Part shown: piece by piece, positions 3,245 to 15,342 of the stretch
Layout of the letters: each line of letters starts with the position of its first letter
Numbering within the stretch: the first letter of the stretch is position 1
DNA from: Deltaproteobacteria bacterium
GTDB taxonomy: Bacteria > Desulfobacterota > DSM-4660 > Desulfatiglandales > HGW-15
Reading direction: 5' to 3'
DNA: 36,139 bases
Assembly: GCA_016931115.1 (NCBI GenBank)
Contig: JAFGFM010000142.1
Span: 1 to 36,139, forward strand
The notes under the pieces: model-generated
What the model was told of the DNA's origin: nothing
What the model saw: only the letters and a program-made list of their open reading frames with translations
Databases searched by the model: none
Program-made: the position numbers and the translations under genes

Positions 3245-3273
3245 TTGACAAAAAAAACAGATGGGCATAAAAA
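3245..3273 (+). promoter_or_regulatory. Candidate sigma70 promoter for the Ehr-type operon
   Basis: A perfect TTGACA (3245-3250) is followed at 17 bp by TAAAAA (3268-3273), a fair -10. The leader to the first ATG would be about 80 nt. The surrounding sequence is A-rich, so a chance match is possible. Confidence 0.4.
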
Positions 3274-3358
3274 ACATTTTTTTGTCCAATAATGACAGTC
3301 AGGGTTCAAAAAGAAGAATGATTGGGCTATAAAGACATAAATTAATAGAGATTGATAA

Positions 3359-4060
3359 ATGAAACTCAGGGTAAAAGATGCAGCAGAGCTGCTAAAGGTC
3401 TCAGAAAAGACCATATACAGGTGGATAGCACAGGACAAGCTGCCCATGCATCAGGTAAACGGGCAGTACAGGTTTAACCGTGCAGAACTCCTTGAATGGG
3501 CTACCTCAAACCGTGTGCCGATTTCACCCAGGATGATGGAAGAACCGGAGGATGCATTTATACCCTCTCTTGAGGAGGCATTAAGGTCTGGTGGTATCCA
3601 TTACAGGGTAGAGGGAACAGACAAGGTCTCTGTATTAAGGAGCGTAGTCAACATCCTTTCATTGCCGGACGGTGTTGACAGGGAGTTTCTATTCCAGGTG
3701 CTCCTTGCAAGGGAATCATTAGGCTCAACGGCTGTAGGCGACGGGATAGCGATCCCCCATGTGCGTAACCCTATTACCCTTCATGTGACAAAACCCCTTA
3801 TGGCCCTCTGTTTTCTTGAGACACCCATAGATTTTCAGGCAATGGATGGAAAACCGGTTCATACACTCTTTACCATTGTGAGCCCTACCATTAAGGCACA
3901 CCTGAACCTCCTGTCAAAACTCTCTTTAGGGCTGCGTTCACCCGCATTCGCCAGTGTAATAGCAAATACAGGTTCAAGGGAGGATATCTTCCTGGAGGCA
4001 GGCAGGCTTGATGCAACCCTGACAATGGTTCACTCAAAGGAAAAGAATCAGGTGAAATGA
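3359..4060 (+). CDS. HTH (excisionase/MerR-type) - PTS EIIA fusion regulator
   Basis: The 233-residue protein has two parts. Residues 1-55 form a helix-turn-helix of the excisionase kind (VKDAAELLKVSEKTIYRWI, then a wing with YRFNRAEL). Residues about 70-220 are a fructose/nitrogen-type EIIA domain, with the usual motif GDGIAIPHVR placing the phosphorylatable histidine at residue 134. In known EIIA domains this histidine takes a phosphate from HPr or NPr. Here the fusion suggests a transcription factor whose DNA binding responds to phosphorylation. No EI, HPr or sugar permease gene lies in the window, so a transport role is unlikely. Its stop overlaps the start of the next gene (ATGA), so it is co-translated with the membrane complex that it probably controls. 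Confidence 0.82.
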   Translation: MKLRVKDAAELLKVSEKTIYRWIAQDKLPMHQVNGQYRFNRAELLEWATSNRVPISPRMMEEPEDAFIPSLEEALRSGGIHYRVEGTDKVSVLRSVVNILSLPDGVDREFLFQVLLARESLGSTAVGDGIAIPHVRNPITLHVTKPLMALCFLETPIDFQAMDGKPVHTLFTIVSPTIKAHLNLLSKLSLGLRSPAFASVIANTGSREDIFLEAGRLDATLTMVHSKEKNQVK

Positions 4061-6033
4061 CAATATATCTGATATTACTCGCTCTTATTATTATCTGTGC
4101 AGGGGGGGTAGTGGCACTGTTTACAGGCGCTTCATATAAAGCCGCAACCTGGATTGGTGTTGCATCTTCCATTCTGGGGGCAGCATGCGCCATTTTTGCC
4201 GCCGGTTCTGCCCTGTTTTGCGGTTATCACACCTCTATACATATGGCCTGGCAGATCCCGTTCGGCTCATTCTATATCGGTCTTGACCCACTGTCCGCAT
4301 TTTTTGTTGTCACCATATCTATAGTATGCGCCATTGCGGCCATCTATGGCGCTGGTTATCTTAAGAGCTACAGCGGCAGAAAAAAGATCGGCGCTGCATG
4401 GTGTTTCTACAACCTCCTTTTTGCCTCAATGCTGCTGGTCGTTATCGCAAGAAACGGCATCCTCTTCCTGATTGCATGGGAGATAATGTCTATTGTCTCA
4501 TTCTTTCTTGTTATATTTGAGCATGAAAAAAAAGAGGTACGCGATGCAGGGTGGGTATACCTTGTGGCTGCACACATTGGGCAGGCATGCCTTATGTGTC
4601 TGTTTATTATGCTTGCAGGGGGGAACGGCAGTCTTGATTTTGATTTATTTTCAGTCTCTGCTGATAAAAGCGCCCTGTTTATGCTGGCACTCATAGGGTT
4701 TGGCGTTAAGGCAGGGTTTATGCCCCTGCATGTGTGGCTCCCTGATGCACATCCTGCTGCCCCTTCAAATGTCTCTGCTGTTATGAGCGGGGTGATGATC
4801 AAGACAGGTATATATGGCATCATACGCATAATATATATTTTAGGCATTCCCGCACAGTGGTGGGCCTATACACTTATCGTTATCGGTGCAGTATCTGCTG
4901 TTACAGGGATACTTTTTGCAATGGCACAGCGTGACATTAAAAGGCTGCTTGCATATTCAAGTGTGGAAAACATCGGGATTATCATCTCAGGTCTGGGGCT
5001 GTGGCTCCTTGGCCTCTCAATGAATAATATGGTTATTGCCGGTTTCGGGTTGATAGGCGCACTTCTGCATCTTGTTAACCATGCCTTTTTCAAGACCCTT
5101 TTATTTTTCGGGGCAGGCTCAGTTGTTCATGCAACAGGGACAAGAAATATTGATCTCATGGGGGGGCTTTTAAAACGTATGCCCCATACAGCCCTCCTTT
5201 TTGGGATAGGGGCCGCTGCTATATGCGGGTTTCCTCCCCTGAATGGTTTTATAAGCGAATTTTTTATATACATAAGCGCCTTTAATCTCCTCACCTGTAA
5301 AGTACAGGGAGGGCCTGTTGAAGGAGGGCTTATTGCCATAATATCGCTTTGTATCACCGGTGGGCTTGCTGCTGCCTGTTTTTCCAAGCTATTCGGTATA
5401 ATATTCTTAGGTGAACCGCGAAGCGAGCATGCAGCCTCCGCACATGAGGCAAACGGGTCCATGCTTGTGCCCATGATGATAGTTGCCATCCTCTGTATCT
5501 TTATCGGGCTTTTAAGCCCCATCGCAATCAGATTCATAGCCCCTGTAGTAGAACAGCTCACAGGGTCCGGAAATGCAACAGTGCCCTTAAGCATGGCAAG
5601 CGGCCTGCTTTACAAAATCAGCCTTGCCGGTCTGTCAGTGGTAGTAGTTGTATCTCTATTATGGTGGGTGCGTTATCTGCTCCTTAAAGGACGGGTTAAC
5701 ACGAAAGGGCCGACATGGGACTGCGGTTACCTGTTTCCATCATACCGCATGCAGTATACCGCTTCATCATTTTCATTGCCTGTAATTAACATGTTCAGGT
5801 GGATAATAAGGCCATCTCTGAATGTGGAGATAATGAAGGGATATTTTCCTGTTAAAGGAAAGGTCTCTACCCATACGGATGATATATTCCGAAAAAGGTT
5901 CTTTAATCCCATATTCAGATTTGTAGAGGTGGTGGCTCATAAGGTCCATAAGCTCCAGGAAGGGCGCAACCAGCTCTATGTGCTCTATATTGCCATAACA
6001 GTTCTTGTACTGTTACTTATCAAGTTGAGGTAG
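4057..6033 (+). CDS. hyfB: HyfB-like proton-translocating antiporter subunit
   Basis: A 658-residue polytopic membrane protein of the NuoL/NuoM/MrpA superfamily, with length and C-terminus typical of HyfB/HycC of group 4 complexes (GPTWDCGY followed by a long terminal extension). The residues needed for proton relay are present: Glu142 in WEIMSIVSF, Lys218 in GFGVKAGFMPLHVWLPDAH, His225 and Lys249 in GVMIKTGIYG. It should pump protons or sodium in the inner membrane when the peripheral arm transfers electrons. It overlaps the regulator by 4 bp and abuts the next gene directly. The symbol follows the E. coli hydrogenase-4 naming; the complex itself is not a typical hydrogenase (see the large subunit). 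Confidence 0.88.
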   Translation: MTIYLILLALIIICAGGVVALFTGASYKAATWIGVASSILGAACAIFAAGSALFCGYHTSIHMAWQIPFGSFYIGLDPLSAFFVVTISIVCAIAAIYGAGYLKSYSGRKKIGAAWCFYNLLFASMLLVVIARNGILFLIAWEIMSIVSFFLVIFEHEKKEVRDAGWVYLVAAHIGQACLMCLFIMLAGGNGSLDFDLFSVSADKSALFMLALIGFGVKAGFMPLHVWLPDAHPAAPSNVSAVMSGVMIKTGIYGIIRIIYILGIPAQWWAYTLIVIGAVSAVTGILFAMAQRDIKRLLAYSSVENIGIIISGLGLWLLGLSMNNMVIAGFGLIGALLHLVNHAFFKTLLFFGAGSVVHATGTRNIDLMGGLLKRMPHTALLFGIGAAAICGFPPLNGFISEFFIYISAFNLLTCKVQGGPVEGGLIAIISLCITGGLAAACFSKLFGIIFLGEPRSEHAASAHEANGSMLVPMMIVAILCIFIGLLSPIAIRFIAPVVEQLTGSGNATVPLSMASGLLYKISLAGLSVVVVVSLLWWVRYLLLKGRVNTKGPTWDCGYLFPSYRMQYTASSFSLPVINMFRWIIRPSLNVEIMKGYFPVKGKVSTHTDDIFRKRFFNPIFRFVEVVAHKVHKLQEGRNQLYVLYIAITVLVLLLIKLR

Positions 6034-6957
6034 ATGATGGATATGAAACTCTTTGGGCCTGTCATACATATACTGCTTGCGCTTGTAATATCGCCTCTTC
6101 TTATGGGTATAATAAACCGTACAAAGGCTAAATTTGCAGGGAGAAAGGGGCAACCCCTTTTACAGCCATATTATGACATCATAAAACTTTTAAGGAAGGG
6201 CTCGGTCTACAGCACTACCACTACATGGGTTTTCAGGCTTGGCCCTGTGGCAGGCCTTTCTGCCATGATCATTGCCATCCTGATTATCCCTTCGGGCGGG
6301 ATAAACAGCCTGCTTTCATTTCCATGCGATTTTATTCTTATGGCATACATACTCGGTGTGGCGCGGTTTCTTACAGTAACAGCCGCACTTGATACAGGAT
6401 CACCCTTTGAAGGGATGGGGGCAAGCCGTGAAATGCAGTTTGCCATCCTTGCCGAGGTGGTGATGTTTATGGGGGTTGCTGTTCTGGCTGTTGGAACAGG
6501 TAAGATAAGCCTTTCATCCATCTATTACACACTGTGGGACAGCAATTTTACCAATATTGCCCCGGCCGTTTTTCTTGTGGCCCTGTCATTTTTGATAGTA
6601 CTTCTGACTGAAAATGCCAGGATACCTGTGGATGACCCGAACACACATCTTGAACTTACCATGATACACGAGGTAATGGTACTTGACCACGGCGGGGTTG
6701 ACCTGGCCCTCATACAATACGGTTCATGTCTCAAGCTATGGCTCTTTTCATCACTCCTCGCTGGCATGGCAATCCCTGTAAGGACAGGCATTATGATAGT
6801 TGATATGGGGATAAATACAGTCGGGATTTTGCTGATATCAGTATTCGTGGGTATTATTGAATCAGGCATGGCCAGGCTGAAACTTCTGCACATCCCCCAG
6901 ATGCTTCTTGCTGCCTTCTCTGTTACAGCAGCCGCATTTCTATGGGTCTTGAGGTGA
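6034..6957 (+). CDS. hyfC: HyfC-like membrane anchor subunit (NuoH family)
   Basis: A 307-residue membrane protein of the NuoH/HyfC/EchB family, which joins the peripheral electron-transfer arm to the pumping subunits. Visible family motifs are GASREMQFAILAE, where conserved Arg and Glu line the subunit interface, and RIPVDDPNTHLELTMIHEV, the acidic loop seen in HyfC proteins. At least seven hydrophobic segments can be counted. The start codon follows the previous stop with no gap; three in-frame ATGs fall within the first four codons and the first is taken here, since GTTGAGG just upstream fits it. Length matches the usual ~310 residues. Confidence 0.88.
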   Translation: MMDMKLFGPVIHILLALVISPLLMGIINRTKAKFAGRKGQPLLQPYYDIIKLLRKGSVYSTTTTWVFRLGPVAGLSAMIIAILIIPSGGINSLLSFPCDFILMAYILGVARFLTVTAALDTGSPFEGMGASREMQFAILAEVVMFMGVAVLAVGTGKISLSSIYYTLWDSNFTNIAPAVFLVALSFLIVLLTENARIPVDDPNTHLELTMIHEVMVLDHGGVDLALIQYGSCLKLWLFSSLLAGMAIPVRTGIMIVDMGINTVGILLISVFVGIIESGMARLKLLHIPQMLLAAFSVTAAAFLWVLR

Positions 6958-6960
6958 TTT

Positions 6961-7602
6961 ATGACAACATGGATTGATATATTTTTACTGGCCCTTGTAC
7001 TAACTGATTTCCGTCTGCTGGCATCAAGCCGTCTGGGCGCTATTATACAGACCACCGTGTTCCAGGCCGTTTCATTGAGTGCATGTATGCTTTTGATGGC
7101 AGTGAGGCCTATCTCTATCTATATTATAGCGCTTTCTATTGTTACCTTTACAGTAAAGGGTATTATCCTGCCCTGGCTTTTAAGAAGGGCAATGAGGGAG
7201 GCTGATGTGCAGAGGGAGGTAAGGCCAATAATTGGTTACAGCGCATCTGTGCTCATAGGGGTTGTACTCCTGGGCCTGAGCTTCATTATCTTTATGCCAA
7301 TGAAAGAGACTGTATCAGGCTCTGCCTTTCTTATGCCAGGGGCGCTTTTTACCACCCTGACCGGTCTTATGATGATTATTTCAAGAAAAAACGCACTCAC
7401 ACAGGTTGCAGGGTACCTTGTCATGGAAAACGGGATTTATGCCTTCGGTGTAATACTTGCTGTAGAGGAACCGCTGCTTATTGAGATGGGTGTACTCCTG
7501 GATGTCTTTGTGGCGGTATTTGTCATGGGCATTACCGTGTACCAGATTTCCAGGGAGTTTGACCATATTGACACGGACAGACTCTCAGAACTCAAGGATT
7601 GA
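6961..7602 (+). CDS. hyfE: HyfE-like membrane subunit (NuoK/MrpC-related)
   Basis: A 213-residue hydrophobic protein in the hyfE position. Family members of about 215 residues carry a NuoK-like core, seen here in the second half as ISRKNALTQVAGYLVMENG followed by EEPLLIEMGVLLDVFVAV, with conserved glutamates inside membrane helices. It starts 3 bp after the preceding stop and ends 4 bp before the next start. It should sit between HyfC and the antiporter subunits and extend the line of polar residues through the membrane. Confidence 0.85.
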   Translation: MTTWIDIFLLALVLTDFRLLASSRLGAIIQTTVFQAVSLSACMLLMAVRPISIYIIALSIVTFTVKGIILPWLLRRAMREADVQREVRPIIGYSASVLIGVVLLGLSFIIFMPMKETVSGSAFLMPGALFTTLTGLMMIISRKNALTQVAGYLVMENGIYAFGVILAVEEPLLIEMGVLLDVFVAVFVMGITVYQISREFDHIDTDRLSELKD

Positions 7603-7606
7603 TATT

Positions 7607-9085
7607 ATGCTTATTACCATTGTCCTTATTCCTGTTTTGCTTGGAGCCCTTTCCATTGTACTTCCATATAAAAAGATAAGGAGAGGAATCCTGGTTGCAG
7701 GTTCAATATCTCATTTGACCCTGACTGTTATCCTGGGTTTTATGCGGAATAATGCATATGATACAGGTGACTGGATCGGGCTCGATAATCAGGGGCTATT
7801 GTTTCTGGCTATAACCAGCATACTGTTTTTAATGGTCTCAATATATACGGCAGGCTATTTGTGGAGAGAGTCTGATCGCAATGTTGAGGACTCGGTTGAG
7901 GGGTTCTATTTCAGGAACGAACCGGAGAGAATGTTCATTGCCTGCCTGCTTTTTTTTCTGGCAACCATGAGTATGGTATGCATAAGCAGGCATATGGGGC
8001 TTTTGTGGGTTGCTATTGAGGCCACAACCCTGGTTAGCGCACCGCTTATAAGCTTTCATAAACATCACAGGAGCCTTGAGGCCACGTGGAAGTACCTGCT
8101 CATATGCTCTGTGGGTATTGCTGTAGCGCTCCTTGGCAATTATTTTATGGCCTTTGCAGCACACCAGGAGGTATCCTTGAACCTGGATAAACTTATAGGA
8201 AACGCAGGCTTTCTTGATCAAAAATGGCTGAAGGCCTCCTTTCTTATGCTGCTTGTAGGGTATGGCACAAAGGCAGGCATTGCGCCCATGCACACATGGC
8301 TTCCTGATGCACACAGCGAGGCACCTTCAATGGTCTCTGCATTGCTTTCAGGCGCATTGCTCAACTGTGCATTCCTGGGCATCATGAGATCACACTCGAT
8401 CCTTTTCGCATCAGGCCTTGGTGATTTCAGCGGGGGGCTAATGGTCTTCTTCGGGATGCTCTCAATCGTATTTGCCGCTGCTTTTATGATTCGCCAGACC
8501 GATTACAAACGCATGCTCGCATATTCAAGCATAGAACACATAGGCATACTTACACTTGGCGCAGGCATCGGAGGTATTGCAGGGACAGGCGCAATGCTCC
8601 ATGCTGTAAATCACTCACTTACCAAGGGCATGCTGTTTATTATTTCAGGGCAGATACTCTATTTGTACGGGAGCAAAAAGACCTCTGATGTACACAATAT
8701 AGCAAAAACAACACCTTTTACCGGGATATTCTGGATGGTCGGGTTTCTGGCCATTACTGGCACCCCGCCCTTTGGCACCTTTATAAGCGAGATTACCATA
8801 TTATATGGAATAATCGGCGCTGGCAGATGGGGGATCGCAGCAGGGTATCTGCTTGGGCTTGGTGTTATTTTTATAGCCATGGCAAGGATCATGATCAACA
8901 TGTCCTTTGGAGGAAACTTGAACAGCCGCATTATTGAAAAGCTAAAAGAGCTAAAGGGCGTACCTTTATGGTATACTGCCCCTGTGATAATCATGGCCTT
9001 CATAATATTATCTCTTGGAATCTATGTCCCTGATGCCCTCTTTCGTTTTCTTGCGAATGCAGCAGGGCTGACTGGAGGTTTATAG
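7607..9085 (+). CDS. hyfF: HyfF-like antiporter subunit
   Basis: The second NuoM/NuoN-like subunit, 492 residues from the ATG at 7607. The frame is open further upstream, but only inside hyfE. Conserved are Glu138 (WVAIEATTLVSAP) and Lys222 (YGTKAGIAPMHTWLPDAH). In contrast to HyfB, the position 31 residues after that lysine, where HyfB has Lys249, is Asn253 (GALLNCAFLG). This may be normal for HyfF-type proteins or could alter the proton path; I cannot decide without an alignment. The C-terminus has further helices and no long amphipathic arm. Spacing to both neighbours is under 5 bp. Confidence 0.86.
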   Translation: MLITIVLIPVLLGALSIVLPYKKIRRGILVAGSISHLTLTVILGFMRNNAYDTGDWIGLDNQGLLFLAITSILFLMVSIYTAGYLWRESDRNVEDSVEGFYFRNEPERMFIACLLFFLATMSMVCISRHMGLLWVAIEATTLVSAPLISFHKHHRSLEATWKYLLICSVGIAVALLGNYFMAFAAHQEVSLNLDKLIGNAGFLDQKWLKASFLMLLVGYGTKAGIAPMHTWLPDAHSEAPSMVSALLSGALLNCAFLGIMRSHSILFASGLGDFSGGLMVFFGMLSIVFAAAFMIRQTDYKRMLAYSSIEHIGILTLGAGIGGIAGTGAMLHAVNHSLTKGMLFIISGQILYLYGSKKTSDVHNIAKTTPFTGIFWMVGFLAITGTPPFGTFISEITILYGIIGAGRWGIAAGYLLGLGVIFIAMARIMINMSFGGNLNSRIIEKLKELKGVPLWYTAPVIIMAFIILSLGIYVPDALFRFLANAAGLTGGL

Positions 9086-9086
9086 G

Positions 9087-10592
9087 ATGCCGGGTTCCAG
9101 TTTTATCAGGACAGTAAACGCTGAGGCGGTTGATTTCAGGGATATCCCTGTTATGGATTTTGCTGATTTCCGGGAGTCAATAATTGAAGAGATAAGGGCA
9201 GGGGGGCGTATTTCAGCCATGCCTGCCTGTCCGGCTGAGGATGGCCTTCTAAGGATAATCGCAGTGCTATCCCTGCCAGTATCGGGTGAAATACTTATAG
9301 GGTCAACCTGCATAAATGGGTCATGGCCATCTATCACTCCTGACTGCACTGCTGCACACTGGTTTGAAAGGGAGATCGCCGAGATACATAGTGTCACACC
9401 AAACGGGCATCCCTGGTTAAAACCGATACGTTTCCAGCCACCACATGATATCTCTTTGCAGGAATATTCCCTGCAATGCGGCAATGCAAAATTCTTAGGC
9501 CTTGATGGGGAAGAGTCACATGAGGTGGCTGTAGGGCCAGTTCATGCAGGGATTATTGAACCTGGTCATTTCAGATTTTTATGCCATGGGGAGACAGTAT
9601 ACCACCTTGAGATATCATTAGGCTACCAGCACAGGGGCATCGAAAGGGCCATGAAAGGGGGGCCTGGTGTCAGAGCCCTGCACTATATGGAAACTTTAGC
9701 AGGAGATACAACAATAGGGCATGCTACAGCATACTGCATGGCGATTGAGGCATTGTCAGCTATATCTGTGCCGCCCCGTTCACTTGCCATAAGGGCCATA
9801 GCAGCGGAACTGGAACGGATAGCAAACCATGTTGGTGACCTGGGCGCACTTGCCGGTGATGTTGGTTTCTTACCCACAATGAGTTACTGTGGCAGGATTA
9901 GGGGAGATGTGTTAAACATGACCGCCCTTTTATGCGGGAATCGCTTTGGCAGGGGGCTTGTGCGCCCATCAGGCACGGCCTTTAATCTTGATAAAAATCT
10001 GATCGATGAACTCATGTTGCGGCTTAAATCAACAGAAAAGGATATTACCTCTGCTGTTGAACTCATGTTTGACACACCATCGGTGCTGTCAAGGTTTGAG
10101 GGAACAGGCGCATTATCAGAGGAAACAGCAAGGGAGGCAGGGCTTGTAGGTGTGGCTGCAAGGGCAACAGGCATGAACTGTGATGTGAGGAATGAATTCC
10201 CTTATGGTATGTACTGTTTTTCACAGCTGCATGCATGCACCTGGAATACAGGCGACTGTTTTGCCCGCGCCTATGTAAGATGGCTTGAGATCAGGAGCTC
10301 CATCGAGTTTATCAGAACACAGCTACTAAATTTACCAGACGGGCCTGTATCATGCAAAACCGCGCCAATCAGTAAAGAAAAGATTACTGTCAGCCTTGTA
10401 GAGGGGTGGAGGGGAGAGATATGCCATGTGGCGGTTACGGACAAAGAGGGGCGATTCGCATTTTATAAGGTGGTTGACCCCTCATTTCATAACTGGTTCG
10501 GGCTTGCTTTGGCCCTGAGAAATCAGCAGATATCTGATTTCCCATTATGTAATAAGAGTTTTAATCTGTCATATTGTGGACATGATTTATAG
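9087..10592 (+). CDS. Fused 30K-49K large subunit without Ni-Fe ligands (Ehr-type)
   Basis: A 501-residue protein. Residues ~1-135 form a NuoC/30K-like domain (HWFEREIAEIHSVTPNGHPW), and ~145-501 a NuoD/hydrogenase-large-subunit domain (GPVHAGIIEPGHFRF, GYQHRGIE, ELERIANHVGDLG). Group 4 [NiFe] hydrogenases bind the metal with two CxxC pairs. Here the first site reads METLAGDTTIGHA (201-213) and the second VVDPSFHNWFGLALA (463-477), so no cysteine is left in either. The fold is otherwise intact and the protein ends as Ehr-type subunits do (KSFNLSYCGHDL). It therefore cannot bind Ni-Fe in the usual way. It is best read as the catalytically recast subunit of an energy-converting hydrogenase-related complex whose substrate is unknown. 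Confidence 0.88.
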   Translation: MPGSSFIRTVNAEAVDFRDIPVMDFADFRESIIEEIRAGGRISAMPACPAEDGLLRIIAVLSLPVSGEILIGSTCINGSWPSITPDCTAAHWFEREIAEIHSVTPNGHPWLKPIRFQPPHDISLQEYSLQCGNAKFLGLDGEESHEVAVGPVHAGIIEPGHFRFLCHGETVYHLEISLGYQHRGIERAMKGGPGVRALHYMETLAGDTTIGHATAYCMAIEALSAISVPPRSLAIRAIAAELERIANHVGDLGALAGDVGFLPTMSYCGRIRGDVLNMTALLCGNRFGRGLVRPSGTAFNLDKNLIDELMLRLKSTEKDITSAVELMFDTPSVLSRFEGTGALSEETAREAGLVGVAARATGMNCDVRNEFPYGMYCFSQLHACTWNTGDCFARAYVRWLEIRSSIEFIRTQLLNLPDGPVSCKTAPISKEKITVSLVEGWRGEICHVAVTDKEGRFAFYKVVDPSFHNWFGLALALRNQQISDFPLCNKSFNLSYCGHDL

Positions 10593-10600
10593 AGAGAATT

Positions 10601-11371
10601 ATGATCAATATTATAAAGACACGCATACAGCAGAAATACAGGACCTTTGTTTATCCGGATGGCCCTCCTCCTGAATTACCCCCCAGGTTTGTTGGACGCC
10701 CTGTTGTGAGCAAGGCGCAATGCCTGCATGAGGAGTGCGGAAAGTGTGTATCCATATGTCCTGTGCAGGCAATTTATCTATCTCCTGAAACAAAAGGACC
10801 AATAATTGATACAGGCAAATGCATATTCTGCCGCCAGTGCGAAGGTGCATGTGTTAATGGGGTTATACAATTCAGCAGGAATTATCAGCTTGCTGTATCT
10901 GAGCCTGAAAATCTTCTTGTTAAGGCAGGGGTGCCTGATCATTGTGATGCAAGGAATAAAGTTGCAGAGAAACTGTTTAAAAAATCCCTGAAATTAAGGC
11001 AGGTATCTGCTGGTGGCTGCAATGCATGCGAGGCAGATACAATTGTTTTAGGTACACTCGCATGGGATTTAGGCCGTTTCGGGATGCAGTTTGTTGCGAG
11101 CCCGAGACATGCTGACGGGATACTTATTACAGGGCCAGTTACCCGGAATATGCATGAGGCGCTGTTAAAAACCTACAGGGCAGTTCCTGAACCAAAGATA
11201 GTTATTGCCGTTGGCTCATGCGCCATATCAGGTGGCCCATTTTATGATCACCCGGAGCAGAATAACGGGGCAGGGGGTATTGTTCCGGTTGATCTCTTTA
11301 TACCGGGCTGCCCTCCTCATCCGCTTACGATTTTTGATGGGCTTTTAAGGTTTACAGGCAGAATAAAATAA
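10601..11371 (+). CDS. HyfH-HyfI fusion: ferredoxin plus NuoB-like small subunit
   Basis: 256 residues. The N-terminal half holds two [4Fe-4S] sites: Cys41, 46, 49, 53 (an unusual CX4CX2CX3CP) and Cys74, 77, 80, 84 (standard). From about residue 130 it becomes a NuoB/HyfI small subunit with GGCNACE (Cys140, Cys143), GSCAISGGPF (Cys207) and PGCPPHP (Cys237), so all four ligands of the proximal cluster remain. Electron transfer through this subunit is thus still expected even though its partner lacks Ni-Fe. In hydrogenase-4 these are two separate genes. It is the last gene of the operon, 8 bp after the large subunit, with an AGAGAG-like ribosome site. Confidence 0.87.
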   Translation: MINIIKTRIQQKYRTFVYPDGPPPELPPRFVGRPVVSKAQCLHEECGKCVSICPVQAIYLSPETKGPIIDTGKCIFCRQCEGACVNGVIQFSRNYQLAVSEPENLLVKAGVPDHCDARNKVAEKLFKKSLKLRQVSAGGCNACEADTIVLGTLAWDLGRFGMQFVASPRHADGILITGPVTRNMHEALLKTYRAVPEPKIVIAVGSCAISGGPFYDHPEQNNGAGGIVPVDLFIPGCPPHPLTIFDGLLRFTGRIK

Positions 11372-11544: not shown

Positions 11545-12657
11545 ATGATCGGAGGCACTGTTAAGGTACATAATGTAAGTAAAAATTTTGGTACCACCCA
11601 GGTCTTGAAAGATATAAAACTTGAAATCAATGCAGGCGAATTCTTTTCGCTTTTAGGGCCATCCGGATGCGGTAAAACCACCCTGTTAAGGATCATTGCC
11701 GGGTTTGAAATCCCCACATCCGGAGATATACTGCTTGATAATGAGAGCGTGATCAACAAGGCGCCTAATGAGCGTCATGTAAACACCATATTCCAGAATT
11801 ATGCCCTGTTCCCTCATCTTACCGTTTTTGAAAATGTTGCCTTTTCCCTGAGACTTAAAAAGATAGATAAAAATATCATCAAGAGCCGTGTTGCAGAGTA
11901 TGTTAATTTGGTCAGGCTTCAGGAGCATATAAACAAGTACCCGGCACAGCTTTCAGGGGGGCAGAGGCAGCGTGTTTCAATAGCCAGGGCGCTCATAAAC
12001 GAGCCAAGGGTTCTGCTCCTGGATGAACCCTTAAGCGCACTTGATGCAAAACTGCGACAGGATCTTTTAATGGAGCTGGATCGCATACATGATATCATAG
12101 GCATTACCTTTATATATGTGACCCATGACCAGGAAGAGGCCATGAGTGTATCCGACCGGATAGCGGTAATGCAGGAGGGTAACCTGTTGCAGGTTGGAAC
12201 ACCCTTTGAGATATATGAAAGCCCGGCAGATATGTTTGTTGCAGATTTTATAGGGGCATCTAACAACATTGAAGGTAAGGTTATAGAGGTAACAGAAAAC
12301 AGGGCCTATATCGAGACCCCTGACATAGGGCGCATAACCGTTGATCTGGATAAAAAACTCAAGGCCAGTGACCATATAAAGGTAACGCTCAGGCCGGAAA
12401 AGATACACATATCAAAAAAGGCGCCATCACTGGATTCCCCTAAATGGAACTGCATATCAGGGAAGGTAGACCAGATGGTATATACAGGTTCTCATACAAG
12501 GTTTATAATAAAGACCGAACACGGGCGGGTATTCAAGACATTCAAGCAGCATGCCCAGTATTTTACCGATGAAGAACCCATACAGTGGGAAGACAATGTT
12601 TATATGTGGTGGCATGCGGATGACAGTTTTATTGTTGAGGTGAATGGCAATAGATGA
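11545..12657 (+). CDS. potA: Spermidine/putrescine ABC transporter ATPase
   Basis: A 370-residue cytoplasmic ATPase that drives polyamine uptake. Walker A is GPSGCGKT (38-45), the Q-loop IFQNYALFPHLT, the signature LSGGQRQRVSIARAL, Walker B VLLLDEPLSALD and the switch histidine THDQEEA. The last ~130 residues form a TOBE-type regulatory domain, as in PotA and other importer ATPases. The order ATPase, two permeases, binding protein matches the pot operon and separates it from sulfate, iron or maltose ATPases, which share the domain plan. GGAG lies 6 bp before the start, and the 3' end overlaps potB by 4 bp. Confidence 0.9.
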   Translation: MIGGTVKVHNVSKNFGTTQVLKDIKLEINAGEFFSLLGPSGCGKTTLLRIIAGFEIPTSGDILLDNESVINKAPNERHVNTIFQNYALFPHLTVFENVAFSLRLKKIDKNIIKSRVAEYVNLVRLQEHINKYPAQLSGGQRQRVSIARALINEPRVLLLDEPLSALDAKLRQDLLMELDRIHDIIGITFIYVTHDQEEAMSVSDRIAVMQEGNLLQVGTPFEIYESPADMFVADFIGASNNIEGKVIEVTENRAYIETPDIGRITVDLDKKLKASDHIKVTLRPEKIHISKKAPSLDSPKWNCISGKVDQMVYTGSHTRFIIKTEHGRVFKTFKQHAQYFTDEEPIQWEDNVYMWWHADDSFIVEVNGNR

Positions 12658-13502
12658 TCAAGAATTACGGACAGCGTTATACATTTCCTATTATGGTGTG
12701 GCTGACAGTATTTTTTGTAATACCATTTTCCATTATCCTGGTAGGTAGTTTCCTTGAAAAAGGGCTGTACGGCGGATTTGAGCCCGCCTTCTCCATTGAG
12801 GCTTACAAGGCGCTTATGTCAGATACCATGCGCAAGGTAACGCTGAACACAATATTTATCAGTGTTGCAACAACTGTGCTTACTGTACTGCTTGCCCTTC
12901 CCACTGCCTATCACATAGCAAGGTCACCATATAAGGAAAAACTGCTTTTCCTTGTTATTATCCCATTCTGGACCAATTTCCTGATACGCATATTTGCCTG
13001 GATCGCAGTGCTTGGCAATAACGGGCTTGTAAACAATTTTTTCGTAAATATCGGGATATTCAATTCCCCTGTTCAACTGTTATATAACAAGTGGGCTATT
13101 ATACTTATCATGATCTATACCTCTCTGCCCTTTGCCATACTGCCCCTCTATGCGGTTATAGAAAAGTTTGATTTTTCCCTGCTGGAGGCGGCAAGGGATC
13201 TTGGTGCAACTAAGTCCCAGTCCATGTTTAAAATACTTATTCCACTTATCCTTCCGGGGATATCCACTGCTGTTCTTTTTACCTTTATCCCGGCCTTTGG
13301 CAATTTTGCCATTCCTGATATTGTTGGTGGCACTGATGTGCGTATGCTGGGTAATATAATCAATGAAAGATTAAAAACCGCTCGTAACTGGCCTTCGGCA
13401 GCAGCCATATCCATGATCCTCACAACAATCTCTGTTGTGATGGTCCTGCTCTTTAACCGCATCATCTCATCCAAAGAGCGAAAGATTGGAGGAAATATCT
13501 GA
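12654..13502 (+). CDS. potB: Polyamine ABC transporter permease
   Basis: A 282-residue inner-membrane permease with six hydrophobic segments. The EAA loop that docks on the ATPase is seen as EAARDLGATKSQSMFKILIP at about residue 180. In two-permease importers of this type the PotB-like member comes first and starts with a short cytoplasmic tail, as here (MIKNYGQRYTFP). The ATGA overlap with potA implies coupled translation. Confidence 0.88.
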   Translation: MIKNYGQRYTFPIMVWLTVFFVIPFSIILVGSFLEKGLYGGFEPAFSIEAYKALMSDTMRKVTLNTIFISVATTVLTVLLALPTAYHIARSPYKEKLLFLVIIPFWTNFLIRIFAWIAVLGNNGLVNNFFVNIGIFNSPVQLLYNKWAIILIMIYTSLPFAILPLYAVIEKFDFSLLEAARDLGATKSQSMFKILIPLILPGISTAVLFTFIPAFGNFAIPDIVGGTDVRMLGNIINERLKTARNWPSAAAISMILTTISVVMVLLFNRIISSKERKIGGNI

Positions 13503-13503
13503 T

Positions 13504-14301
13504 ATGAAGGATGTATTGGTTCGGTCACATATCAAACACAGGATATCAGGGAGTTTTTTCTGGTTTACCATGTTGTTTTTTTATGCACCGCTCCTTGTGC
13601 TGATCGTCTTTTCGTTCAATGAAGGCCGTTCAATGAACTTTACCGGGTTTTCATTCAAATGGTACAAGGTGCTCTTTTTTGACTCTGCAAAGCTCTGGGG
13701 CTCTTTTTACAATACCCTGCTTATAGCAGTAACCTCTGCCCTTGTCTCAACTGTTATCGGTACACTCGGGGCAATCGGTATATACTGGTATAATTTTAAA
13801 ATGAAAAGATACCTTGAGGTGGTGTCATATCTGCCTATTATCCTGCCGGAGATAATCATCGGCGTATCAATGCTCATGTTTTTTGCAGGTATGAATATGC
13901 CCCTGGGGTTATCAACCATAATTATTGCACATATCACCTTCAATATCCCCTATGTGCTGCTTATTGTTATAGCGAGGCTTTCGGAATTTGATTATTCCAT
14001 AATAGAGGCTGCCCATGACCTGGGCGCAACAGAGATGGATACACTCCTGAAGGTAATTATACCCATGTGTATCCCGGGTATCCTTTCAGGTTTTCTTATG
14101 GCAATTACCCTCTCTGTTGACGATTTTGTTATTACCTTTTTTGTAACAGGGCCGGGCGCGTCAACCCTTCCGCTTCATATATATTCCATGCTGCGTTTCG
14201 GGTTGTCACCAGCGATTAATGCCCTTTCCGTGATCCTGATCGTTGGCAGCCTGGCCATGGCGTTTATGTCAAAGAAACTGTTCAAGCATATGTTCAACTA
14301 A
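13504..14301 (+). CDS. potC: Polyamine ABC transporter permease
   Basis: The 265-residue partner permease, with the EAA loop EAAHDLGATEMDTLLKVIIP. I place the start at the ATG at 13504, preceded by TTGGAGGAAA; a longer reading from a TTG at 13486 would put the ribosome site inside the gene. The motif LSVDDFVITFFVTGPG is typical of PotC. It begins 1 bp after the potB stop. Confidence 0.88.
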   Translation: MKDVLVRSHIKHRISGSFFWFTMLFFYAPLLVLIVFSFNEGRSMNFTGFSFKWYKVLFFDSAKLWGSFYNTLLIAVTSALVSTVIGTLGAIGIYWYNFKMKRYLEVVSYLPIILPEIIIGVSMLMFFAGMNMPLGLSTIIIAHITFNIPYVLLIVIARLSEFDYSIIEAAHDLGATEMDTLLKVIIPMCIPGILSGFLMAITLSVDDFVITFFVTGPGASTLPLHIYSMLRFGLSPAINALSVILIVGSLAMAFMSKKLFKHMFN

Positions 14302-14319
14302 TAAAAGGAGAATAAGGCT

Positions 14320-15342
14320 ATGAAAAAAATTAATTTGGTTTTGATTTGTTTAATGGCGCTTTTTATTGTGTTCAGTTGCAGTCAGCAAAAGGAAAAACTC
14401 TATATCTACAACTGGACCTATTATATTCCTGATGAGATAATAAAAAATTTTTCAGAGAAATATAATGTTGAAGTGGTTTATGATGAATTTGCCTCCAATG
14501 AAGAGATGTTTGCAAAGCTCAAGGCAGGAGGTTCAGGGTATGATATAACCTTCCCTTCAGCCGATTATGTCTCCATCATGATAAAAGAGGAGATGCTTGA
14601 AAAGATAGATAAATCAAAGGTCCCCAACTTTAAAAACATTGATCCTGAATTTTTAGCCGGTATTGAATATGATAAAGACTGTGAATATTCAGTGCCCTAT
14701 TACAAGGGTGCCTCAGGCATAGCGGTAAATAAGAAGTTTGTTAAGGATTATAATAAGGATATGAGCATTTACCTTAAACCGGAACTCAAGGGCAGGATGA
14801 CCCTGCTTGATGACATGCGCGAGGTTATGGGTCTTGCCCTTAAAGCTAATGGATATTCGGTCAACTCAATTAATCCTGCTGAGCTTGAAGTTGCAAAGAA
14901 TCTTGTACTTCAGTGGCGTGAAAATATCCTTAAATTCGATGCGGAATCCTTTGCAAAAGCCTTCGCATCCGGTGAGTCATGGGTAGTCCATGGATATGAA
15001 GAGGGTATCTTTCAGGAACTGGAAGAGTCTGCCAAGGCTGATGTGGACTTCTTTATACCGACTACCGGCGGTCCTTTGTATATAGATGCAATGGTTATCC
15101 TGAAGGATTCTAAAAACAAGGAACTGGCATACAAGTTTATAAACTACATACATGAACCGGATGTATATGCCAAGTTTGTTGATTTTTTCGGTTTTCCATC
15201 AATTAATGTGCCTGCCAGGAGCATTAGAACAGGAAAGCCGGTATATACAGAGGATGACCTGAAAAAATGTGAACTCAAGATAGACCTTGGCGAAAATCTT
15301 GAGCTGTATAACAAGATATGGGAAGAGATAAAGGTGAAATAA
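14320..15342 (+). CDS. potD: Polyamine-binding lipoprotein
   Basis: The 340-residue substrate-binding protein that delivers spermidine or putrescine to PotBC. A short hydrophobic leader ends at a lipobox-like VFSC, so Cys20 is probably the lipidated residue, in line with a lipoprotein rather than the free periplasmic PotD of E. coli. Family features are LYIYNWTYYIPDEI at the start of the mature protein, AKLKAGGSGYDITFPSADY, and the closing region with FPSINVPAR. The ribosome site AAAAGGAG fits the start. Which polyamine is preferred cannot be read from the sequence by eye. Confidence 0.9.
   Translation: MKKINLVLICLMALFIVFSCSQQKEKLYIYNWTYYIPDEIIKNFSEKYNVEVVYDEFASNEEMFAKLKAGGSGYDITFPSADYVSIMIKEEMLEKIDKSKVPNFKNIDPEFLAGIEYDKDCEYSVPYYKGASGIAVNKKFVKDYNKDMSIYLKPELKGRMTLLDDMREVMGLALKANGYSVNSINPAELEVAKNLVLQWRENILKFDAESFAKAFASGESWVVHGYEEGIFQELEESAKADVDFFIPTTGGPLYIDAMVILKDSKNKELAYKFINYIHEPDVYAKFVDFFGFPSINVPARSIRTGKPVYTEDDLKKCELKIDLGENLELYNKIWEEIKVK

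Follow-up and report, generated by a model that had tools for sequence, protein, structure and literature searches.

An HTH-EIIA fusion protein accompanies Ehr operons in several phyla, as judged from genome sequences, and probably acts as a BldC-like autoregulator, a repressor, that is tuned by a nitrogen-type PTS. We analyzed a 36,139-nucleotide stretch of DNA (here, the window) in which the fusion gene heads an Ehr operon. The fusion gene and its parts are located as follows.

3359 to 4060, + strand: HTH-EIIA fusion gene, 233 aa, ATG start (ORF with Pfam and NCBIfam domain calls)
3365 to 3514, + strand: HTH_17 (BldC/excisionase-like) domain, residues 3 to 52 (Pfam; RacA and BldC structures match weakly in sequence)
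3590 to 3991, + strand: EIIA-Ntr-like domain, residues 78 to 211 (Pfam, NCBIfam, and a fold match to PtsN 3urr)
3758 to 3760, + strand: codon of His134, the predicted phospho-acceptor (invariant in 16/16 alignment rows; aligns with the IPH of PtsN)

Pfam placed HTH_17 (PF12728) on fusion residues 3 to 52 with 62.2 bits against a cut-off of 27 and PTS_EIIA_2 (PF00359) on residues 78 to 211 with 85.1 bits against a cut-off of 27. Among the NCBIfam models, TIGR01764 (excise) exceeded its cut-off (49.1 versus 28.8), and the best EIIA model was TIGR01419 (nitro_reg_IIA), at 67.6 bits. Because this score is below the equivalog cut-off of 138.7, we describe the domain as EIIA-Ntr-like and do not call it PtsN. 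An AlphaFold2 model of the fusion protein (mean pLDDT 86.3, pTM 0.71) matched PtsN 3urr over 147 aligned residues (Z 16.9, rmsd 2.5, 29% identity), and the HTH sequence gave weak matches to BldC chains (E 0.46 to 0.49) and RacA (0.085). In GIAIPHVRNP, the H is His134, which is aligned to the IPH of solved PtsN proteins. This motif, including His134, together with Arg118, Ser123, Thr124, and His181, was invariant in 16/16 aligned members drawn from several phyla. The Pfam domains and the alignment to the PtsN IPH bear out the initial annotation of the gene as an HTH fused to an EIIA domain in which His134 is kept. A chance ORF or chance fusion is ruled out by 15 full-length homologues with 50 to 84% identity, all of which keep GIAIPHVRNP.

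The rest of the operon follows on the same strand.

4057 to 6033, + strand: hyfB-like antiporter subunit, with a 4-bp overlap with the fusion gene (ORF, Pfam, NCBIfam)
6034 to 6957, + strand: hyfC/NuoH-like subunit (PF00146)
6961 to 7602, + strand: hyfE-like subunit (PF00420; scores under the cut-off of the hydrogenase 4 membrane subunit model)
7604 to 9085, + strand: hyfF-like antiporter subunit (Pfam, NCBIfam)
9087 to 10592, + strand: hyfG-like (NuoC-NuoD) subunit, no CxxC, Ehr-type (Pfam; CxxC check)
10601 to 11371, + strand: hyfI-like subunit, a ferredoxin domain fused to a NuoB-like domain (Pfam)

The 4-bp overlap with hyfB described previously is confirmed, with the fusion stop at 4060 and the hyfB-like ATG at 4057. 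We looked for CxxC motifs in the HyfG of the window and found none; therefore, by the definition in the accessible sections of PMC6349859 and PMC10284858, the complex fits the Ehr type and not a [NiFe] hydrogenase. The function of Ehr complexes is called unknown or suspected in the same sections of these papers. When we clustered the genes of the Ehr loci in search of recurrent extra partner or oxidoreductase genes, no general partner emerged, and the clustered neighbors were mainly reverse-strand shadow ORFs and lineage-specific genes. Downstream of the Ehr operon in the window (11545 to 15342) is a set of genes that, by inspection, we take to be a polyamine potABCD-like ABC transporter.

A scan of named genome contigs yielded 22 relatives of the fusion, 16 of them close (L005 to L020). 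In 16/16 close loci, hyfB is the next gene downstream of the fusion. These loci come from Deltaproteobacteria, Desulfobacteraceae, Desulfovibrionales, Planctomycetota, Phycisphaerales, Sedimentisphaerales, Verrucomicrobia, Lentisphaerae, Treponema, UBP4, and others. The gene order is permuted in L016, L017, and L019 (hyfG-hyfI-fusion-hyfB), which indicates that the fusion remains with hyfB despite rearrangement. The 6 other relatives are two fusions without hyf genes (L021 and L022), one distant relative (L023), and three EIIA proteins with no matched HTH (L024 to L026).

Profile searches of 297 genomes from the host phylum detected 42 fusion places in 40 genomes, which fall into a strong class (≥254 bits, 32 places) and a weak class (≤206 bits, 10 places). 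HyfG was present within 10 kb at 30/32 strong places compared to 0/10 weak places. The two strong places without a nearby HyfG are in G005, where the contig has hyfB, hyfC, and hyfE, and in G244, at a contig end. The strong class thus shows the co-occurrence with hyfB/hyfG-like genes that the initial annotation had proposed as a check, and the alternative that the fusion lies mostly elsewhere is rejected for this Ehr-linked class; it holds for the weak class, which is CLC-linked. The reverse linkage is looser, with a fusion within 30 kb of HyfG in 27/35 host-phylum places where HyfG scored at least 700 bits. Among the remaining places of this kind, G145 and G261 have the His-less form described below, and G042 is cut by a contig end. 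HyfG scores of 450 to 650 bits were found at 17 places, where a fusion is present at G059 only and the His-less form at G101.

A second sample consisted of 246 genomes around the Phycisphaerales record L010, with thresholds of ≥244 bits for a strong fusion and ≥680 bits for HyfG. A strong fusion was detected in 21 genomes, 18 of which also have HyfG, and 5 more genomes have HyfG without the fusion. Considering the 21 fusion places besides that of L010, hyfB was near in 16, a contig end intervened in 1, and 4 strong homologues (L146, L149, L150, and L151) had no hyf gene in the 17 to 19 kb fetched. A partial second fusion copy in G453 (L145) was excluded from the class counts. The association between the fusion and HyfG gave Fisher p values, not corrected for phylogeny, of 5e-23 in the host phylum and 5e-20 in the second sample. 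Across 44 loci, fusion distances correlated with HyfG distances at r 0.47, a value reached by 3/5000 permutations; the corresponding correlation between HyfC and HyfG was 0.85, which suggests that the fusion is linked to HyfG less rigidly than the Ehr subunits are linked to each other. In addition, one genome (G315) has a tandem pair of HTH-EIIA genes (L157:9420-11011), with 51% and 60% identity to the window protein, before two hyfB copies.

The low-scoring fusions comprise the 10 from the host phylum, L021, L022, and 5 from the second sample (L021, L022, L088 to L097, and L152 to L156). A CLC chloride-channel gene with a CBS domain comes after the fusion in 17/17 loci of this weak class, as called by Pfam at three loci and via clustering or tblastn at the remainder. 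Several of the CLC-class loci have an additional conserved gene of approximately 280 aa, one copy of which (L088:5482-6324) had no Pfam match. A Spirochaetes locus (L023:9018-11899) encodes, consecutively, an HTH-EIIA protein (27%), a second EIIA protein, and a Na/H exchanger. Given a sister class with CLC genes, the fusion is linked to ion transport more broadly than to Ehr alone. EIIA domains are reportedly fused to CLC proteins and to antiporters elsewhere.

Upstream of the fusion gene, we identified a candidate promoter and operator.

3245 to 3250, + strand: putative -35 box TTGACA (TTGACA-17-TAAAAA pattern; also in L057 and L005)
3268 to 3273, + strand: putative -10 box TAAAAA (pattern match; not in the promoter-scan hits)
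3281 to 3297, + strand: putative operator TTTGTCCAATAATGACA (a direct repeat with a 10-bp period, TGTCC-N5-TGACA; L057 and L005 conserve it)

The TTGACA-17-TAAAAA call depends on conservation among four relatives, and the counterpart in L020 is TTGACA-17-TAAGGG. A general promoter scan gave 4 hits compared to a shuffle mean of 2.6, no clear excess, and TTGACA-17-TAAAAA was not listed among them. The repeat in the window begins 9 nt past the putative -10 box, an arrangement that is common to L057 and L005. It is two mismatches from the consensus TGTCC-N5-TGTCC and is the counterpart of the exact repeat of other members. In the 5.18-Mb host genome, TTTGTCCAATAATGACA has one exact match, the operon's own. 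A wider host regulon was considered and rejected: the pattern at ≤1 mismatch occurs in 25 places, the exact match among them, and a reversed control gave more (68), so only the operon's own site stands out.

The consensus, whose 10-bp period corresponds to one helical turn, was first noticed in 29 upstream regions, where it is exact in 10/29 (mean of 0.02 and maximum of 1 over 100 shuffled sets) and present at ≤1 mismatch in 17/29 (shuffles: mean 0.3). Other spacers from 0 to 12 gave no exact copy in these regions and, at one mismatch, ≤3 regions each. In 21 later regions, which are independent of the discovery, the repeat is exact in 4/21 and present at ≤1 mismatch in 8/21 (shuffles: 0 and 0.18). 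A 32-region set, made by adding L069, L076, and L077 to the 29, gave 13 exact and 20 at ≤1 mismatch, figures that are favored because the three added regions were already known to carry the motif. For all Ehr-class upstream regions examined (29, 19 further fusions, 3 His-less, and the later 21), the totals are 18/72 exact and 32/72 at ≤1 mismatch. By comparison, 200-nt tiles elsewhere in the same loci contain the exact repeat in 0/2456 cases and the repeat at ≤1 mismatch in 21/2456. The repeat was sought at one mismatch in Ehr operons without the fusion and found in 0/14, and the CLC class together with L023 (13 loci) has a single repeat site, in L089. The upstream regions were 200 nt, or 300 nt for the set with the 19 further fusions, the 3 His-less members, the fusion-less Ehr operons, and the CLC class; for L079 and L087, the start positions used were approximately 25 to 45 nt off.

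For 24 members that gave a fair promoter match, each promoter being the top-scoring script match limited to the motif vicinity, we compared the repeat start with the -10 box. In 11 members, the repeat starts on the final base of the box (-2 to 0); in 6/24, it starts approximately one turn farther downstream (+8 to +10); and in 4/24, it lies on the other strand, close to the spacer (-19 to -17). A repeat over or near the -10 box is a geometry that suits a repressor.

The repeat tracks residues of the recognition helix. Tyr20-Arg21 is present in 31/32 motif-positive members compared to 14/33 motif-negative members (p 1.4e-6, not corrected for phylogeny), a count in which the window fusion was scored motif-negative because its repeat has two mismatches. 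In members with diverged recognition helices (L075, L078, and L080 to L086), the repeat is absent. Arg21 of the fusion aligns with BldC Arg30, a correspondence taken from the alignment; according to the accessible sections of PMC5859096, it is through Arg30 that BldC reads the C-G pair in each of its repeats. These sections also describe binding of BldC to direct repeats, for which the complement of the whiI-opt optimum CAATTCGGACAATTCGGACA reads TGTCC-N4-TGTCC. Given the tracking of the repeat with Tyr20-Arg21 and the match of Arg21 to Arg30, direct binding by the fusion is the simplest account.

The host genome, 5.18 Mb in size and 98.5% complete, encodes one HPr (66.3 bits in a profile search) and one EI (N-domain, 103.3 bits), and the two genes are adjacent. 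EIIA_2 matches were found at two places, the fusion gene and a separate ptsN-like gene, whose neighbors we take, by inspection, to be rpoN, hpf, and an EIIA-Man gene. We searched the host genome for an HPr kinase and did not find one. The phosphate donor on which the initial annotation had relied is thus present, with EI, HPr, and PtsN all encoded by the host. EI was detected in 46/49 fusion-bearing genomes searched, including 30/30 of the high-quality ones. Because 277/297 genomes of the phylum have EI, this co-occurrence is barely informative, being necessary rather than telling. The fusion is absent from 4/4 HyfG-bearing genomes without EI (G016, G117, G156, and G171), which are too few to weigh.

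Some Ehr-linked relatives have lost the phospho-histidine. Three HTH-EIIA relatives located directly upstream of hyfB (L101:10888-11628, L103:4114-4854, and L115:16005-16772) have 25 to 29% identity to the window protein, with the IPH and the second histidine replaced and the active-site neighbors gone. A His-less profile search of the 297 genomes returned just these three. A TGTCC-type repeat is present near the start codon of each, exact in L103 and with one mismatch in L101 and L115, which argues for DNA binding by the unphosphorylated form. In L020 (10001-10396), also upstream of hyfB, an in-frame gap over residues 72 to 155 removes the EIIA core, and no repeat was found; the gap may be an assembly error. 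Together, the His-less clade and the L020 gap suggest that phosphorylation is not needed in every host, weakening the case for an essential role, and DNA control may persist without phosphorylation in the His-less clade.

A mechanism can be proposed in which fusion protomers would bind cooperatively to the repeats in a head-to-tail arrangement like that of BldC. Bound protomers would block RNA polymerase, and the fusion would thereby repress its own operon. Phosphate would pass from PEP to EI, then to HPr, then to His134 of the fusion EIIA. Phosphorylation of His134 might weaken DNA binding, such that a charged PTS would raise expression of the ion-translocating complex. This direction, the least certain step, is chosen because the His-less clade, which is unphosphorylatable at this position, keeps the operator. 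The initial annotation had suggested that PTS state sets expression of the complex; the half of this claim that concerns expression is supported by a promoter repeat that tracks the fusion, and the phosphorelay half we keep conditional, given the His-less clade of three.

Alternatives to this mechanism differ in which part of the fusion they discount. If the HTH autoregulates the operon while the EIIA domain is a scaffold or ligand sensor and phosphorylation has no role, three Ehr-linked relatives could be expected to keep the operon, the HTH, and the repeat without His134 and its catalytic surroundings, as they do, and L020 without its EIIA core would fit as well. However, His134, Arg118, Ser123, Thr124, and His181 would be needless in a mere scaffold and are invariant in 16/16 members, and the host has kept EI and HPr; we regard this explanation as unlikely. 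The fusion could instead act at the protein level, with the HTH merely setting the regulator's own dose. The neighbors of each class are ion transporters (Ehr, CLC with CBS, and the Na/H exchanger beside L023), hyfB is next in 16/16 close loci, and unphosphorylated PtsN inhibits YcgO, according to the accessible sections of PMC11808508. All of this is compatible with a protein-level role, but the repeat overlaps a promoter ahead of the whole gene row rather than the regulator alone, and we consider such a role quite improbable.

It is also conceivable that another factor binds the TGTCC repeat and that the fusion is not a regulator of this promoter. This would accommodate the 14 members with Tyr20-Arg21 in which the motif is missing at one mismatch; it is hard to reconcile with a repeat that covaries with recognition-helix residues, occurs in none of the 14 fusion-less Ehr operons, and appears in the CLC class at L089 alone, and we give it very little credence. 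We consider it very likely that the fusion autoregulates the operon and reasonably likely that PTS phosphorylation is a working input to it. With moderate confidence, we favor the fusion as a one-component regulator dedicated to the Ehr operon at whose head it lies, in which an HTH that would act on the repeats is combined with input from PTS phosphorylation.

More tentatively, and with confidence that falls a little short of even, HTH-EIIA proteins could form a branch of the nitrogen-type PTS whose output is DNA binding, with classes for different ion systems (the Ehr pump and the CLC channel). The Ehr class would act on BldC-like promoter repeats, and the PEP-charged PTS would set ion-pumping capacity in several phyla, with one clade blind to phosphorylation. 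If true, the regulatory PTS, which controls K+ transport through protein-protein interactions, would also act directly on the promoter of an energy-converting ion pump. Ehr complexes occur widely, and a dedicated regulator whose operator is defined would offer a handle on when they are made. The His-less clade provides natural variants for probing the role of phosphorylation. Effects of PtsN on ion transport (PMC11808508, accessible sections) and PTS-domain regulators are already known. We found no HTH-EIIA fusion linked to Ehr in our searches of the open-licence literature, including the accessible sections of PMC13104625, PMC6349859, and PMC10284858. Nor did these searches, including the accessible sections of the 2026 PTS-Ntr review (PMC13104625), turn up a minimal HTH with EIIA-Ntr that has an operator of its own at Ehr or CLC genes.

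The operon in the window shares with Ehr complexes (PMC6349859 and PMC10284858, accessible sections) a hyfBCEFGI-like set, antiporter-like subunits, and a large subunit without CxxC; it differs in having a PTS-type regulator at its head, which is absent from these sections. With the BldC family, the fusion shares an HTH_17-type wHTH, an Arg at the position of BldC Arg30, and a direct repeat with TGTCC as its operator, which is putative for the fusion. However, the repeat period is 10 bp for the fusion and 9 bp for BldC, the fusion adds a C-terminal EIIA domain, and the sequence match is weak (E 0.46). PtsN and the fusion have in common the fold and the IPH histidine, in a host with EI and HPr, but the fusion also has a DNA-binding domain and a site in an Ehr operon, and it has GIAIPHVRNP where PtsN has IPHG. 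In Chlamydia, PtsN reportedly carries an HTH domain. Like the fusion, PRD regulators of the MtlR and LevR type are transcription regulators with PTS domains that can be phosphorylated by the PTS. These proteins join PRDs to EIIB and, in many cases, to a sigma-54 AAA domain. Sigma-54 activators carrying PTS domains have been described (PMC3162934, accessible sections). In contrast to the PRD regulators, the fusion is a minimal HTH plus EIIA, has no PRDs, and is encoded beside an ion pump rather than a sugar operon.
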